Positions 18,227 to 27,625 of a DNA stretch of 64,000 bases are shown here, piece by piece; within the stretch, counting starts at the first letter, position 1; each line of letters opens with the position of its first letter. This DNA comes from Neelides folsomi (taxonomy: Eukaryota > Arthropoda > Collembola > Neelipleona > Neelidae): the NCBI GenBank assembly GCA_034687125.1, contig JAQGBZ010000029.1, positions 62,001 through 126,000 of the forward strand, in the 5' to 3' direction. The notes beneath the pieces are model-generated. The model made no database searches and was not told the origin of the DNA. It saw only the letters and a list, made by a program, of their open reading frames with translations. Both the position numbers and the translations under genes were made by a program.

Positions 18227-19236
18227 ATGGTACTATTCACGATGATTACGAGGCTGAGGGATTACATGCCCTTGGCCGCCTCAATGCAAAACGATGAAGA
18301 GGTGAGGAAGTTCAAGTTTTATAATTATTTTACATTTTAAAATTTTGGGGTTGTCTAAAATTAAATTATAAGTTTTAGTGAAGATAAAATTTTAGGGGTT
18401 GTTAAATTTCATTTAAAATATGTTTTAAAGCATGATGTAACAATTTTGTTTAAAAATTTCAAGGCTGAAAGAAGTCTCATTGAATATCAGCAACAAGCAA
18501 AATTACTTTTGCGAAAATTGAATAGCCAAAGTCCGATGAGATGTACAATTGAGTCCGGAGCCTATGTTTTCCAGTAAGTTCCTTTATTTGATTTTACACT
18601 AATTTTTTATAAATTATGTAATAAAGCTTAATGAAATTAATGATATTAGTACAATGAAATTGGACATGTTACAATATTATTTATTGTTTTCAGTTATTTA
18701 ATTGAAAGTGACGTCGTGTACCTGACATTATGTGACAAAAATTTTTCAAAGAGACTAGCATACTCATATTTAGAAGACCTGGCTCAAGAGTTCCAATCGC
18801 TTTATGCTAAGAAAATTCAGACGGCAACTCGACCTTACTTTTTCATTGAATTTGGTAAGGTTTTGTCCTTATATTCATAATATTATTAAAAAAACAAAAT
18901 TATTGGATCAAAGTAACAAATCCTATCTGTATTACTGCAGACACGTATATTCAAAAAGCACGAAAAAGTATTTTGGACTCGAGGTCGAGACGAAACCTAA
19001 GTGCTCTCAATACCGAACTTCAAGATGTGCAGAGAATTATGGTACAGAACATCGATGATGTGATCAACCGAGGTGTCGTTCTTTCCGAGCTCGATCACAA
19101 GGCTCAAAATCTGACGATTTTATCTCAAAAGTATAAGAAAGATGCCACATATCTGAACCTGAGGTCAGGCTATGCTAAAGCCGCTGCCGGATTCATTGTT
19201 TTCTTCGTCGTTGTCCTTTACTTTTGGGTTTTGTAA
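18227..19236 (+). CDS. SEC22B: Vesicle-trafficking SNARE SEC22 (SEC22B type)
   Basis: Four exons (18227-18301, 18464-18573, 18694-18854, 18941-19236) give 213 residues, against about 215 in vertebrate SEC22B. It is the R-SNARE of ER-Golgi transport, pairing with syntaxin-5/Bet1/membrin or syntaxin-18 partners. Residues 1 to about 120 are a longin domain ('[10 protein letters not shown]', 'LPLAASM', 'YLEDLAQEF'); the start is fixed by this conserved first block. The SNARE motif follows ('[17 protein letters not shown]', with the zero-layer Arg), and a C-terminal anchor of about 19 hydrophobic residues ends the protein at once after '[16 protein letters not shown]'. AATAAA at 19498 is a likely poly(A) signal. 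A decayed partial copy of this gene sits at about 26455-27340. Confidence 0.96.
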
Positions 19237-20340: not shown

Positions 20341-23300
20341 ATGATGAGGACCTTCGACATCATCGAATTGCTCCTTCTCATCTTGGCCTTCAAATGGGTT
20401 GGATGTAGTGGAAACAAAGAACTCAGACCTGGGCCAAAAGACAAGGTCCTTTACGTCGGCGGAATCTTTCCAATTAATGGAACTGGAGGATGGCAAGGTT
20501 AGTTGACAATAATATTTATTATCTCAATTTCATTTGCTCACTCACTTAATGCTACATCATTCCTTTTAAATCGTCCTTTTCAATACAAAAGTGACAATTC
20601 TTTATTGATGTTAATTTACCTAAAATTTTTAAGAAATTATGAGTTTTTGTCACGTTATGCAAGGGGCGAATTGCAGATAAAATTGTTGTTAAATCTTATA
20701 AACTTTATATCGATGATCTTAATTATATTATTTAAGCCACAAAATAAAATTACACGCATTTGATAAATCTATATTAATTCAAACTTTTATTGAATTTTAG
20801 GAGGACAGGTAATTGACGATTTGACATTGGTGACATCGAAGAGGAACAAATTGGATCAAACATTTGATTTGGTTTTTTCAACGTTATTTTTTAGGCTTGC
20901 AGACCTGCTGCTATGCTTGCTCTCAGAGATGTGAATGTGAGGAAGGACTTGCTCCCAGGATATTTTCTCAACCTTACCTGGGATGATAGTGAAGTGAGAT
21001 ATTTTAACAAAATAAACATTTTAAATGAGCTTAAGGACCTACAATTATTATTATTATTTCAGTGTGACCCGGGTCTTGGTGCAGCAGTGATGTACGAGCT
21101 TCTTTATAAAGATCCACAGAAGTTAATGTTACTTGCTGGTTGTTCAACCGTTTGTACAACTGTTGCTGAAGCTGCCAAAATGTGGAACCTTGTTGTGGTA
21201 AGGATTTATACTTACACCATTTAACACAGTGTATATTCATTCGTAGAATAGTAATATACAATTAAGAAATTAATTCGAAATTAAATAATTTTCATAGCTT
21301 TGTTACGGTGCGAGTAGTCCGGCTCTTTCAGACCGTAATCGCTTTCCTACTCTTTTTCGAACACATCCAAGTGCCACAGTTCATAATCCAACGAGAATTA
21401 TGCTAATGAAAAGGTTCAAATGGTCAAAGGTCGCTATTTTACAACAAGCAGAAGAAGTTTTCATTTCTGTAAGTTGTCCGTTTTTGTTTTATTGTTTAAT
21501 ATTTAGGCCTTTAAAATCTAAAACTACATTAATTATTGTCATTTAGACGGTCGAAGATTTGGAAGAAAGATGTAAAAATGCATCTATTGAAATTGTCACA
21601 AGACAAAGTTTCTTAACTGATCCGACAGAAGCCGTGAGAAATTTGGTGCGTCAAGATGCTCGAATTGTTGTTGGACTTTTTTACGTTGTTGCGGCAAGAA
21701 GGGTCTTATGCGAAGTTTATAAACAAAAGCTATTTGGAAAATCTCATGTTTGGTTCTTTATTGGTAAATTCCCGAAATTAATATTAAGTATTAATGTTTA
21801 AGCATTATAATTAATTTTCACAATATTGTATATTAGATGAGAGCTTATGAATCATATTATAAGTATAAATTTAAACCATTTATTAAAAAGGGTGGTACGA
21901 AGACAATTGGTTTGAATCCAATCTCGAAAATGAACAAATCAACTGTACAAAGGAAGAGATGAAAATGGCTGCCGAGGGACATTTAACCACCGAAGCTCTT
22001 ATGTGGAATCGAGATAATTCAACAACTATTTCCGGAATGGTACATCACAACATCACACAGCTTATGTATATCGTTTTGATACCACTTATTTATAAATTAA
22101 TTTATTATACCCTAAAAATTTAATTATTAGACTTCGGGCCAATTTCGAGAACGTCTCAATTCAGCTTTGAAGGTTGAAGGTTACAATGTGGATAAAGGGC
22201 TATTTCCTGAGGGCTATCAGGAGGCTCCTTTGGCTTACGACGCTGTTTGGGCCTTAGCACTCGGTCTCTTCAACTTTTTCATACCTAGTCAATATTGCAC
22301 TTATTTTAAATACCAGTTTGTTTCAAATTTCTTTCAGTTTACCTAATTTGCTTTCGCATGAGACCGCCTTGTTCTTTAGAAGTCTAGAGGTAGTTAAAAC
22401 ACATATCAGCGCAAAGTTAAACTCGTTATTTTTTTAAATATTTTAAAAATAACATATTATTTTCACTAAACAAATGAATATCTCGTGATAAATACTTTTA
22501 AAAATTAGCTTTCAACAAGACGATCAAAAATCTTAAAAAGAAAGGGAAAAAACTTGAAGATTTCAATTACACAAATAAAGAGATTGCAGATCACATTTAT
22601 GCAGCGATGGACGAAACTGAGTTCAAAGGCGTCTCGGTAAAACCCATCAACCATCAAGTCATCATTCATCAAAACATTAGAATAATTAAATTATTGAATA
22701 CTATTTCATTATGTAGGGTCGAGTGGCGTTCAGTTCTGGAGATCGAATTGCTTTAACTCAAATTGAACAAATGATTGATGGCAAATACAGCATTCTTGGA
22801 TATCACGATATTGAGTTCGACAATCAAACATGGGAGAAAAAAGATAAATGGATCAGTAAGTTGATTGAAAGAACTCTTTTTATTGAGCACGAATACGAAT
22901 TTACTTATTTATAAATAACTTTTTAATTAGACGATAAAGTTCCACAAGATCGTACGTTCATCATACGTTCGTTAAGAACGGTCTCACTGAGCATCTTCAT
23001 TTCAATGAGCACAATTGCGCTTGTCGGAATTCTTTGGGCAGCTCTTCTGATTCTTTTCAATTACATCTACAGGGATAGAAAGTAAGTTTAAAATTAATTG
23101 GGAAAGGAATTAATGAACAAGTTCAAATTAATGTATTATTTAACAATTAATTTTAAATTACCGTATTACTTTATTTTGTTTCAGAGTGATCCAATTGTCT
23201 CATCCAGTTACAAATACTTTGATGCTTTTTGGGAACATTCTCTGCTTATCATCAGTTTTTCTCATTGGGCTTGACGGACAATTCATCCCTGTTGACATGT

Positions 23301-24909
23301 TCCGTGTTATATGCACCTTTCGAAAGTGGATGCTCTCTATTGGATTTACACTCGCGTATGGAGCAATGTTTTCTAAAGTTTGGAGAGTTCATCGACTCAC
23401 AACAAAGCACAAATCGGAAACAAAGGTTAAATGCTTATCTAATTTTTTACTTTTCTGCTTTCTGATCCCATTTGAACTTTGAACAACCCTGTAATATGTA
23501 ACATGGCATGTCCTTGGAACTAATCATAATTATTTTACTGACCTTTCAGCATAAGATTCAACCTTGGAAATTATACTTGCTTGTTGCCACTCTTGTTTCG
23601 ATCGACGTTTGTTTTCTTGGGATATGGACTCTGGTTGACCCAATGGACAGAAAAATTGTTAATTTCCCACTTGAAGATCCAAAAGATACGGATGAAGATA
23701 TTAAATTGGCTCCAGAGCTTGAACATTGCGAATCTCATTATAACAACATTTGGCTTGGTATAAAATTTTGCAACTCTATTTTGGGTTTATTGTACCTGTG
23801 TATATTGTTAACACGTAAACTTTAGTATTTGGTGATAATGAAAAAAATCTATTTCAGGAATTACGTATTCATTCAAAGGACTTTTACTCATTTTTGGTCT
23901 ATTCTTGGCTTATGAAACTCGTAGCCTGAAAGTTCGTCACATTAATGACTCCCGTCTCGTGGCTATGTCAATTTACAATGTGGCTGTTCTCTGCCTCATT
24001 ACAACTCCGGTTACAATGGTTATCTCATCACAACAAGACGCGTCATTCGCCTTTATCTCTCTTGCTATCATCTTCAGTTCAATGATCACAATGGGCCTCG
24101 TCTTTATACCCAAGATTATCGAAGTGGTTCGGGAAGGAAATGAAAGATCAGACCGATCGTCTGCCCCCGATGGTGGAACAACAAAAGAAGAGGAAGAGAG
24201 ATACCAAAAACTCATTTCGGAAAACGAACAACTTCAAAAAATACTTGAACAGGTTTGGTTTTATTATCCATTTAAAAATGTATTTTTATCATCTTTATAA
24301 TAAGAAACGTGATGATTGTTTTTCTTTATTTTGTACAATAATATATTTATGATTTTCTATCAAAGTTTAGCTATTACATAAATATGAAAAAATTCCATTC
24401 CTAATTTTCAGCTACAAATACATATTACCTCATATTTTAAGTCACTAATATTATAATCAACAAATAAAATTAATTTTGATTGCACTTCTATTACATGACA
24501 AGAATTTGAGTCTTAAAAGTTAATTAAATATTTTAATTTATGTATACAATCTTTACAACGTTATTGACACTTATACGATTATACGATTATACGATTTTTA
24601 ATATGACTGTTTGAAAATGGCAATGAATTAATTCATTTGTTTGGTCACGAGCAGAAGGAGAGTCGTCTCAAACTTCTTCGTCAAAAGCTTGAGGAGAAGA
24701 ACGCAATCGTGAAGGGTGTGTCTGAAGTTGAAAAAGACAGCGGGAGGAGGAAGAGCAGCTCGGTCCAACGCTCAGCCCCGAAGAACAACAACGTGGAGCA
24801 GATTGAAGTTCTGGAGAGTTTCTACATGGAGCCATCAGCCGAATCCGGCATCGGCCAAGGTCTGTCGGTCATTACCACCGACTTTGAGCTCTCTGAGTCC
24901 TACCTTTAA
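20341..24909 (+). CDS. GABBR1: Metabotropic GABA-B receptor subunit 1
   Basis: Fifteen exons: 20341-20497, 20801-20808 (8 nt), 20895-20993, 21063-21197, 21298-21468, 21547-21763, 21891-22039, 22131-22263, 22509-22636, 22717-22855, 22931-23081, 23185-23425, 23550-23757, 23858-24252, 24655-24909; 861 residues. A signal peptide ('[16 protein letters not shown]') precedes the Venus-flytrap domain (to about residue 445). Residues known to bind GABA in subunit 1 are kept: 'YGASSPALS', 'GLFY' and 'YQEAPLAYD' (Glu). This marks subunit 1, not the non-binding subunit 2. A seven-helix class C domain follows (about 460-730), then a coiled coil ('[14 protein letters not shown]') that pairs with subunit 2. 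The ending '[12 protein letters not shown]' is acidic. Exon 8 uses a GTCTCT donor. It couples to Gi/o at synapses. AATAAA lies at 25234; the EB-module gene is convergent. Confidence 0.96.
20801..20808 (+). CDS. GABBR1: 8-nt microexon of GABBR1
   Basis: The octamer GAGGACAG lies between a TTTTAG acceptor and a GTAATT donor. Exon 1 ends in phase 1 (TGG CAA G) and exon 3 starts in phase 0 (GCT TGC). Only inclusion of the octamer restores the frame, and it restores exactly the conserved 'GGQAC' at the start of the flytrap domain. Skipping it shifts the frame. Flanking introns are 303 and 86 bp. Confidence 0.9.
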
Positions 24910-25369: not shown

Positions 25370-27625
25370 CTATAAGGGTGTAATTAACAACTCGTTAATT
25401 ATGAGTTTATGTGATAAAATAATACAAGAAAGTGTAAAAATAAGAATAGTAAAATGAAAATAATTATATTTACTAACGGAGCTGGATGGGAATGATAATT
25501 TTAAGTTGGGGAGCGTGCAAACTGAATCTATCCAAACATACCCTTCTTTGCAGATACAAACTTTCAAACCCTTGGCCTTCCGGTTTAAAATACATTTAAG
25601 AATCAAATCACTTTTCCCTTTGTTATTATGAACTACACATGTTCTCGTATTCGTTTCACGGTAACCAGAATTACATTGGCATCTTCCCATTCCATTTTCT
25701 ACTCCCGTGCATGTCGACCCCGAGACACACTGAAGAGATTCAAGTCCTTGGTTCATTGATGAGATTGAAGTGTTTGAGAGATAACAAGGTTCCCCAGCCA
25801 AAAGGCGACATTCTCCTTTTTCTCCTTTCGGTTCTTGGTAAGTCATTTGATCAGGGAAAAGGCATTCGCATTTGCCGGTTATTTCATTGCAGTTCAAGTT
25901 GTCGTCGGAATTGCATTGGGCGAAAGTGTCTAGGTTCCCGGTCCCCAGGCAGTTTTCTTCGAACCGAAGTGAGCAACTGAAATCACGTGTAGGCGTATAT
26001 TGAGGGGAACATTTACAAACTCCTCGATTATTGGTAAGGGTACAAACGGCATTGTCTATGCATGTTCGAGAGGATGATGATGGGGAGCAGGAAGCACCGA
26101 TAAGCCCCAGACACTTCCGATCATTCCAAGAGAATGTGGTGAGCGGAGGGCAGGAACAGATCTCGTTGACGCAGGCAAGAGGTCCTTCCGGATTGCATGG
26201 AACCGAATTATCACATCGAACTCCAGGACCGAGAAGGCATGACCCGTTTGACATGCTCATGAACATGGGCTTGAAACACTCGCACGTTCCTTTGATACAT
26301 TGGGCATCTTGGACACAAAAGGGGTTGTCTTCACAGCTTTGGCCGGCCAAAACACGGCAATGTCCATTTTCAAGAATGGAATTCTTCTCATTCTCGCACC
26401 GGCACATTCCGTTATCACACTAGAATAAAAGTATTTTAATTTTTAAAATGAATGGCATAATGACAATTTTGTTTTAATTTTAAGGTTGAAAGAAGTCTCA
26501 GTGAATATCAACAACAAGCAAAAAAAATTAATAGTCAATGTTCCGATAAGATGCAACTAGAATTGAATCCCGGGCATATGTTTTCCAGTAAGTTTATTAC
26601 TCTATTTACTCTCAAAAATTCAAACTATGATACAGACATACATATAATTTATAATTAGTTAAATTATGTAACAAAATATAATTTCACAACATACAAATAC
26701 AATCGTTTTGTTTTGACCATGATGACTTACAATTAGCTAGGATGAATTAACTAAATGATAAAATAAAGGGTCTATATATCTATATTTTAGGCCCTAAACG
26801 TTATTGTGAACGCACGCATAAAGATAAAAAATGCCATAGGTCTATTCTAGAATATAAACACTGCTTTGTTGATTGTTGACATTGACCTGTTGATTCTGTT
26901 TATTGAGTATATTATGAAAATGACATCTTGTTTCACTATTATTATTTATTTTCCAGTTATTTAATTGAAACTGACGTCGTGCACCTGATATTATGTGACA
27001 AAAAATTTTCAAAGCGGCTTGCAAACTGGTATTTAGAGGCTCAAAAGCTCCAATCACTTTATACTAACCGGACAACCCTAAGAAAATTCAGACGGCAACT
27101 GGACTACATTTTTTATATAATTTGGTAAGTTTTTCGCTTTATTGGTATAAAAAAATATTCGCAAAATGACAGTACTCTCCAATAAAAGTAAAAATACACT
27201 GTATATAAAAATATTCAAAAAACACGAAACAGTGCTAAGAGAAAAAATCTATGATTGTTCTTTGACTTCTTTGCATTCAATCTCAAGGCCCAAAATATAA
27301 CGATTTTAATCAAAAAGTTTAAGACTGATATTCTCAAGTAGTTATTTGTATTAAATAAGTATCTAAGCTTGAGTTCGTGTTATACTAAAACCACTACAAG
27401 AATCGTTGCTCTTTGCTTACTTTCTGAAATGAGTTTAAAGAGCCAAGAATATGTTTCTACCTTTAAGAATAGGTCAGTGTCACAGTCTTGGGTTTTATGA
27501 CAGAGTTCTCCGTATCTCTTCTTCCTGTCCGAGAAGGCGGGGGCGGTGAGGACAAGGAGGGCGAAGAAGAGGTTGAAACATTGACGGAACCACCGCCACT
27601 TCCGCTTCCTCCAAACCTTGCCCAT
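25370..27625 (-). CDS. Cys-rich EB-module protein, secreted or membrane-anchored
   Basis: Two exons: 27461-27625 (start) and 25370-26419, phase 0, 404 residues. The first ATG in the frame is at 27625. It encodes a signal peptide after a very basic start ('FNLFFALLVLTAPAFS'). Then come repeated Cys patterns of the EB/EGF-like kind, such as 'YGELCHKTQDCDTDLFLK' joined to 'CDNGMCRCENE', 'CVQDAQCIKGTCECF', 'CNEITGKCECLF' and 'CICKEGYVWIDSVC'. The last 40 residues include a hydrophobic stretch ('YFHFTILIFTLSCIILSHK') suited to a membrane or GPI anchor. EB modules are common in nematode and arthropod extracellular proteins, often of unknown function. A GTTAGT inside the last exon, just before the hydrophobic end, could be an alternative donor giving a soluble form. 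The 1041-bp intron contains the SEC22 partial copy. Confidence 0.8.
26455..27340 (+). pseudogene. SEC22B: Decayed partial duplicate of SEC22 (exons 2-4) in intron 1 of the EB-module gene
   Basis: 26485-26587 matches SEC22 exon 2, 26957-27125 matches exon 3, and about 27209-27340 holds scattered matches to exon 4. The splice-site regions and flanking intron bases match too ('ACAATTTTGTTT' before exon 2, CAGTAAGT and ATTTGGTAAG donors), so it arose by DNA duplication and not through mRNA. Exon 1 has no copy. The exon 2 copy is 103 nt against 110, the exon 3 copy 169 against 161, both frame-breaking, and the exon 4 part is badly eroded, so no SNARE protein can be made. By eye the first 75 bases of exon 3 agree at roughly 85%. 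The copied intron between exons 2 and 3 has grown from 120 to 369 bp. It runs opposite to its host gene. Confidence 0.9.

Follow-up and report, generated by a model that had tools for sequence, protein, structure and literature searches.

The 4-bp microexon of MPC1 is reported to be constitutive and to depend on exon definition through proximal introns (PMC9929638), and the 1-nt exon of Arabidopsis APC11, also tiny and constitutive, is proposed to be spliced by intron definition and recursive-type, one-after-another intron removal (PMC4674806). Drosophila neural microexons dependent on eMIC (Srrm234) have a median length of 31 nt and are described as having 3' splice sites that are extremely weak and have UGC close by, a strong branch point, a short downstream intron, and a strong upstream donor (PMC8797185). 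For the same gene family as the one analyzed here, skipping of a PTBP1-regulated exon of mouse Gabbr1 is reported to lead to mRNA decay (PMC11188260, PMC13078869).

In the locus described here, the gene for GABA-B receptor subunit 1 most probably has a coding microexon of 8 nt that is spliced in constitutively (probability about 0.78, judged from the genomic sequence); as microexons of this type are already known, it is likely a further instance of them. Like the MPC1 microexon, it is very short and not a multiple of 3, whereas the MPC1 exon has long flanking introns and the downstream intron of GABBR1 is only 86 nt, which makes intron definition likelier (PMC9929638). The APC11 exon is from a plant and was demonstrated experimentally, while the GABBR1 exon is deduced from the genome (PMC4674806). 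A short downstream intron, a strong upstream donor, and location in a neuronal-type receptor gene are shared with the eMIC-dependent microexons of Drosophila (PMC8797185). An 8-nt GABBR1 exon is described neither among the titles and abstract openings listed in our searches, nor in the passages retrieved from three of the four papers that contain both "gabbr1" and "microexon", nor in those of PMC12314290; we do not claim that it is unreported.

The window, i.e., the whole 64-kb stretch of DNA analyzed, corresponds to positions 62001-126000 of contig C29. The assembly has at least one COX1 match; the one listed keeps its frame throughout under invertebrate mitochondrial code 5 and is accompanied by frames resembling ND2, COX2, and ATP6, a gene order that suggests an arthropod. 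The gene model within it, in window coordinates, is as follows.

20341-20497, + strand: GABBR1 exon 1, 157 nt coding, ending with CAAG before gttagt; protein ...GTGGWQ+G
20498-20800, + strand: intron 1, 303 nt, gttagt...ttttag, phase 1, second longest of 14
20801-20808, + strand: 8-nt microexon GAGGACAG, AG before and GT after
20809-20894, + strand: intron 2, 86 nt, gtaatt...ttttag, phase 0, fifth shortest of 14
20895-20993, + strand: GABBR1 exon 3, 99 nt, beginning with GCTTGC after ttttttag; protein ends ...DDSE
21063-24909, + strand: GABBR1 exons 4-15, overall span
21063-21197, 21298-21468, 21547-21763, 21891-22039, + strand: exons 4-7
22131-22263, 22509-22636, 22717-22855, 22931-23081, + strand: exons 8-11
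23185-23425, 23550-23757, 23858-24252, 24655-24909, + strand: exons 12-15

The 15-exon model, with exon boundaries set by hand using frame and homology, yields an 861-aa protein without an internal stop, and all 14 introns are of the GT..AG type, ranging from 69 to 402 nt; the second-smallest exon of the gene is of 99 nt. Exon 1 encodes the protein start, signal-peptide-like by eye, followed by the beginning of the flytrap domain. The protein aligns with 9jr0_A ("Metabotropic GABA-B receptor subtype 1", which we take to be the Drosophila protein) at 1196.7 bits and with 6w2x_A (GABA-B subunit 1, presumably human) at 873.5 bits, while the top GABA-B2 chain scores 497.3 bits. Both expected Pfam domains are above their cut-offs: the ligand-binding region PF01094 (ANF_receptor) at 201.1 bits and the class C seven-transmembrane domain PF00003 (7tm_3) at 197.6 bits. 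The assignment to GABBR1 made in the sequence-only reading thus agrees with a full-length match to GABA-B1 that is better than that to GABA-B2, and with the presence of the flytrap and class C 7TM domains; by these matches, the gene is that of GABA-B receptor subunit 1.

The span named in that reading, 20498-20894, consists of intron 1 (303 nt), the 8 nt, and intron 2 (86 nt). The flanks of GAGGACAG, read together with the frame, are gaattttag upstream and gtaatt downstream, so that the claimed 8-base exon with its own acceptor and donor is found at 20801-20808, between AG and GT. Its nucleotides, GA-GGA-CAG, complete one Gly and add Gly-Gln; the junction CAA-G/GA-GGA-CAG/-GCT-TGC (slashes mark exon boundaries) encodes Q-G-G-Q-A-C, and exon 1, the 8 nt, and exon 3 read in frame as ...GGWQ-GGQ-ACRPA..., rebuilding the GGQAC motif as claimed. 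The exon is internal, not longer than 30 nt, bounded by its own AG and GT, and restores both the frame and conserved residues, as is characteristic of coding microexons. Within the gene model, 20801-20808 is a genuine 8-nt exon, required for the reading frame.

The stretch GGWQGGQAC or GGWPGGQAC is gap-free in all three GABA-B1 alignments printed, the third aligned chain, 9jqx_A, being a shorter form of 9jr0_A; in the 6w2x_A alignment, a 2-residue gap lies directly ahead of GGW. With GGW[QP]GGQAC uninterrupted in these solved GABA-B1 proteins, the microexon provides precisely the amino acids that the alignments lead one to expect. Its residues sit where the Venus-flytrap domain starts, directly behind the conserved GGW[QP]. 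The Trp just ahead of the microexon corresponds, we assume, to a GABA-contacting Trp of the human receptor, a conserved residue of the ligand pocket.

Scoring of the splice sites with a model built from just the 12 other introns of the same gene gives 6.98 for the microexon acceptor, above 10 of the 12 other acceptors in leave-one-out comparison and second among the 15 AGs scanned, and a middling 4.03 for its donor, above 5 of the 12 donors. When the 397-nt region was shuffled 20,000 times with dinucleotides preserved, the pattern AG/GN GGN CAR/GT, which covers every 8-mer that could encode the required GGQ, arose in one shuffle; the 64-kb window has it a single time on the + strand, at the microexon site, and not at all on the - strand. 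These observations also bear on a possible artefact, an assembly indel or collapse, or a pseudogene, that makes an ordinary exon appear split. Canonical sites bordering the 8 nt and the rarity of the pattern among shuffles argue against it, as do the open frames of all 15 exons and conservation of the protein along its whole length. Searched against the 75-Mb, 840-contig assembly, the 857-bp stretch 20341-21197 has at least one match, and the single match among those listed is the stretch itself, at 100%. An error of the assembly at this place is unlikely in view of the open frame in every one of the 15 exons, and the artefact as a whole appears extremely improbable.

The microexon break was also compared with related genes of the same genome. 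A search with 747 aa of the GABBR1 protein gives at least 22 matches, in the GABBR1 exons on C29 and in genes on contigs C325 and C124. The C325 gene is taken by us to be GABA-B2-like, as its sequence also suggests; its stretch equivalent to the microexon region (SEGSVGRGVLPAVHLAVHDINENKAILPNYKLNVSWLDTK) lies in one continuous exon, and its phase-0 intron LDTK/CDAAD is at the same place as DDSE/CDPG in GABBR1. Hence, the next intron position is common to the two genes, whereas the break at the microexon position is absent from the C325 gene, and the microexon introns belong to the subunit 1 gene and not to this paralogue. The C124 gene is a third, more distant GABA-B-like gene, possibly, in our assumption, of arthropod subtype 3; its N-terminal exon was not recognized in 8.6 kb (forward frames, motif filter, open stretches of at least 35 codons). 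A 224-aa piece compared with prokaryotic contigs gives 29 pattern matches and zero relatives, as expected.

The claim that only inclusion of the 8 bases keeps the frame goes slightly too far: other in-frame routes exist on paper, but none of them restores GGQAC. With the exon 1 donor and the exon 3 acceptor fixed, 12 AG..GT exons of at most 120 nt, the microexon included, are in frame and stop-free, and pairing of donors 20440-20559 with acceptors 20560-20934 gives four direct joins that have no stop; of these 16 in-frame routes, GGWQGGQACRPA comes only from the 8-nt exon. The direct join of 20497 to the acceptor at 20929 loses 14 residues, and its acceptor score is -1.58; joins from donors 20445, 20454, and 20458, within exon 1, remove the GGW stretch as well; skipping of whole exons preserves the frame only if exon 1 is joined to exon 7, 9, 11, or 14, at a cost of at least 630 nt; and retention of either intron 1 or intron 2 leads to an early stop. 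All these routes were rejected, whole-exon skipping as a normal product. Two further sites lie next to the microexon.

20829-20830 boundary, + strand: predicted alternative donor TTG/GTGACA, last exonic base 20829
20798-20803, + strand: predicted tandem acceptor TAGGAG, sites 3 nt apart

Use of the distal site of TAGGAG would shorten the exon to 5 nt and remove one Gly; this site is weak, scoring 1.97 versus 6.98. The donor at 20829, 21 nt beyond the microexon, is predicted to yield a 29-nt exon that adds VIDDLTL in frame and without a stop, the seven-residue insert directly following GGQ. Alternative 5' splice sites at 20808 (8 nt) and 20829 (29 nt) could thereby produce two in-frame receptor forms. 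The score of the 20829 donor (TTGGTGACA), 5.75 versus 4.03 for 20808, and the leftover intron of 65 nt, near the shortest of the model (69), are consistent with such a pair; however, the seven residues would interrupt GGQAC, a motif without any break in the three GABA-B1 alignments printed, and in-frame AG..GT solutions are common in this region (the 12 exons counted above). We consider two such forms very unlikely.

Skipping of the microexon, i.e., joining of exon 1 to exon 3, gives 29 foreign residues followed by TGA at 20984-20986, codon 83, 2,074 nt ahead of the last junction and with 12 junctions downstream. The early frameshift expected on skipping by the sequence-only reading is, therefore, found, and given the stop at codon 83 with 12 junctions behind it, decay of the skipped mRNA would be expected. 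That reading further suggested that inclusion could act as an on/off switch for receptor production. In such a switch, the exon would be skipped outside neurons or at some stages, leading to the premature stop and mRNA decay, and included where the receptor is wanted. The consequence of skipping is compatible with a switch, as are the strong upstream donor and perhaps the AG-free stretch. With 7.21, the donor of exon 1 outscores 8 of the 12 donors that do not border the microexon, and the AG-free stretch ahead of the microexon acceptor, 64 nt, is the fourth longest of 14 introns. Mouse Gabbr1, with its PTBP1-controlled decay exon, offers a precedent for such control (PMC11188260, PMC13078869). 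Among Drosophila exon-microexon-exon cases, 283 of 411 are reported as alternatively spliced and 128 as constitutive, so that the fly prior leans to regulation (PMC8042270).

The cis signals, in turn, are more like those of a constitutive exon, though some features point the opposite way. In human, the introns beside constitutive micro-exons tend to be shorter, and the splice sites stronger (PMC4317164); here, the acceptor is strong and intron 2 is of normal size for the gene, while intron 1 is long for the gene with a strong donor, and the donor of the microexon itself is only middling. The strong acceptor and the lack of TGC and CTNAY differ from the signals described for eMIC-dependent fly microexons (PMC8797185). 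No TGC occurs in the 60 nt ahead of the microexon acceptor, and the CTNAY branch motif was found neither there nor in intron 2, the two places scanned. The absence of TGC discriminates weakly, since TGC is missing from the last 32 nt in all 14 introns of the gene. Most of the tested fly eMIC hallmarks are thus absent from the 8-nt exon: it lacks UGC near the 3' site, a very weak 3' site, and a strong CUAAY, and has the strong upstream 5' splice site. A long AG exclusion zone is a hallmark as well, and by its length the 64-nt stretch ranks, as given above, fourth of 14. A search for the eMIC domain itself (SRRM_C, PF15230) gave no match in this genome or in any of the 14 control genomes, so that its outcome does not discriminate.

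Other comparisons with published microexon sets also bear on the switch. PRP-40-regulated worm microexons strongly prefer multiples of 3 (PMC8378409), and 8 nt is not one. This argument against regulation is weak, separating regulated from constitutive exons poorly, because the same preference is reported for fly microexons generally (PMC8042270). Alternative human micro-exons tend towards disordered regions, whereas the microexon lies within a folded domain; about 81% of human micro-exons of up to 51 nt are constitutive, with numbers dropping sharply with size (PMC4317164). Taken with these points, a regulated switch is unlikely. Taken together, regulated inclusion and regulated selection of either the 8-nt or the 29-nt form have only a small chance of being correct; if either operates, a single splice would set where functional GABA-B1 is made, or would insert seven residues beside the conserved Trp. 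Such regulation would be an arthropod parallel to the splicing-decay switch of mammalian Gabbr1, though located at another exon, and a regulated microexon would make control of the GABA-B receptor in these animals easy to read out. The mouse exon is presumably normal-sized and located elsewhere in the gene, not at the GGQAC junction.

Constitutive inclusion, the reading that we prefer, is the part that we infer, next to the sequence, frame, homology, site scores, and stop on skipping, which are observed. Its most likely mechanism would be removal of the flanking introns one after the other, by intron definition, which is proposed as a solution for microexons and described as a default for short introns (PMC8378409). 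Removal of intron 2 would probably come first and unite the 8 nt with exon 3 in an ordinary-sized exon of 107 nt; intron 1 would follow, spliced to the strong acceptor of this 107-nt exon. For steric reasons, the two ends of an exon of 8 nt are unlikely to be recognized at the same time. In human cells, upstream-first and downstream-first removal are about equally frequent for control microexons, while SRRM4-dependent microexons are strongly downstream-first in 58% and upstream-first in 26% of cases (PMC10250204); for GABBR1, with intron 2 of just 86 nt, downstream-first removal is the simpler guess. The skipped transcript would then be an error product, presumably removed by nonsense-mediated decay; both this decay and the order of intron removal are inferred. 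The view that exons of this size need special recognition is thereby softened, as two-step ordinary splicing may suffice, judging from the constitutive 4-bp case (PMC9929638) and intron definition (PMC8378409).

If the exon is constitutive, as is likely, it would add a further example of exons far below the usual size that are spliced by intron definition. The remark that gene finders often miss such small exons has support, for plants, in PMC8831610. Correct annotation of this conserved receptor depends on permitting an exon of 8 nt, and a predictor dropping it would split or truncate the gene, or call a false frameshift. Most likely, the 8-nt exon is a gene-prediction trap rather than a proven on/off switch.

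Three features of the + and - strands adjoin the gene.

18455-19236, + strand: Sec22-like (longin SNARE) gene, directly upstream of GABBR1
25370-26419, - strand: 349-codon open frame just after GABBR1, Cys-rich, with repeated C-x-C
26476-27329, + strand: degenerate partial Sec22-like copy, about 8 kb on, in three pieces of 77, 88, and 92% identity

The gene at 18455-19236 is Sec22-like by our assumption. The copy at 26476-27329 looks like a duplicated pseudogene, with the two Sec22-like copies flanking GABBR1. The C-x-C motifs of the 25370-26419 frame resemble, by eye, EB/EGF-type modules.
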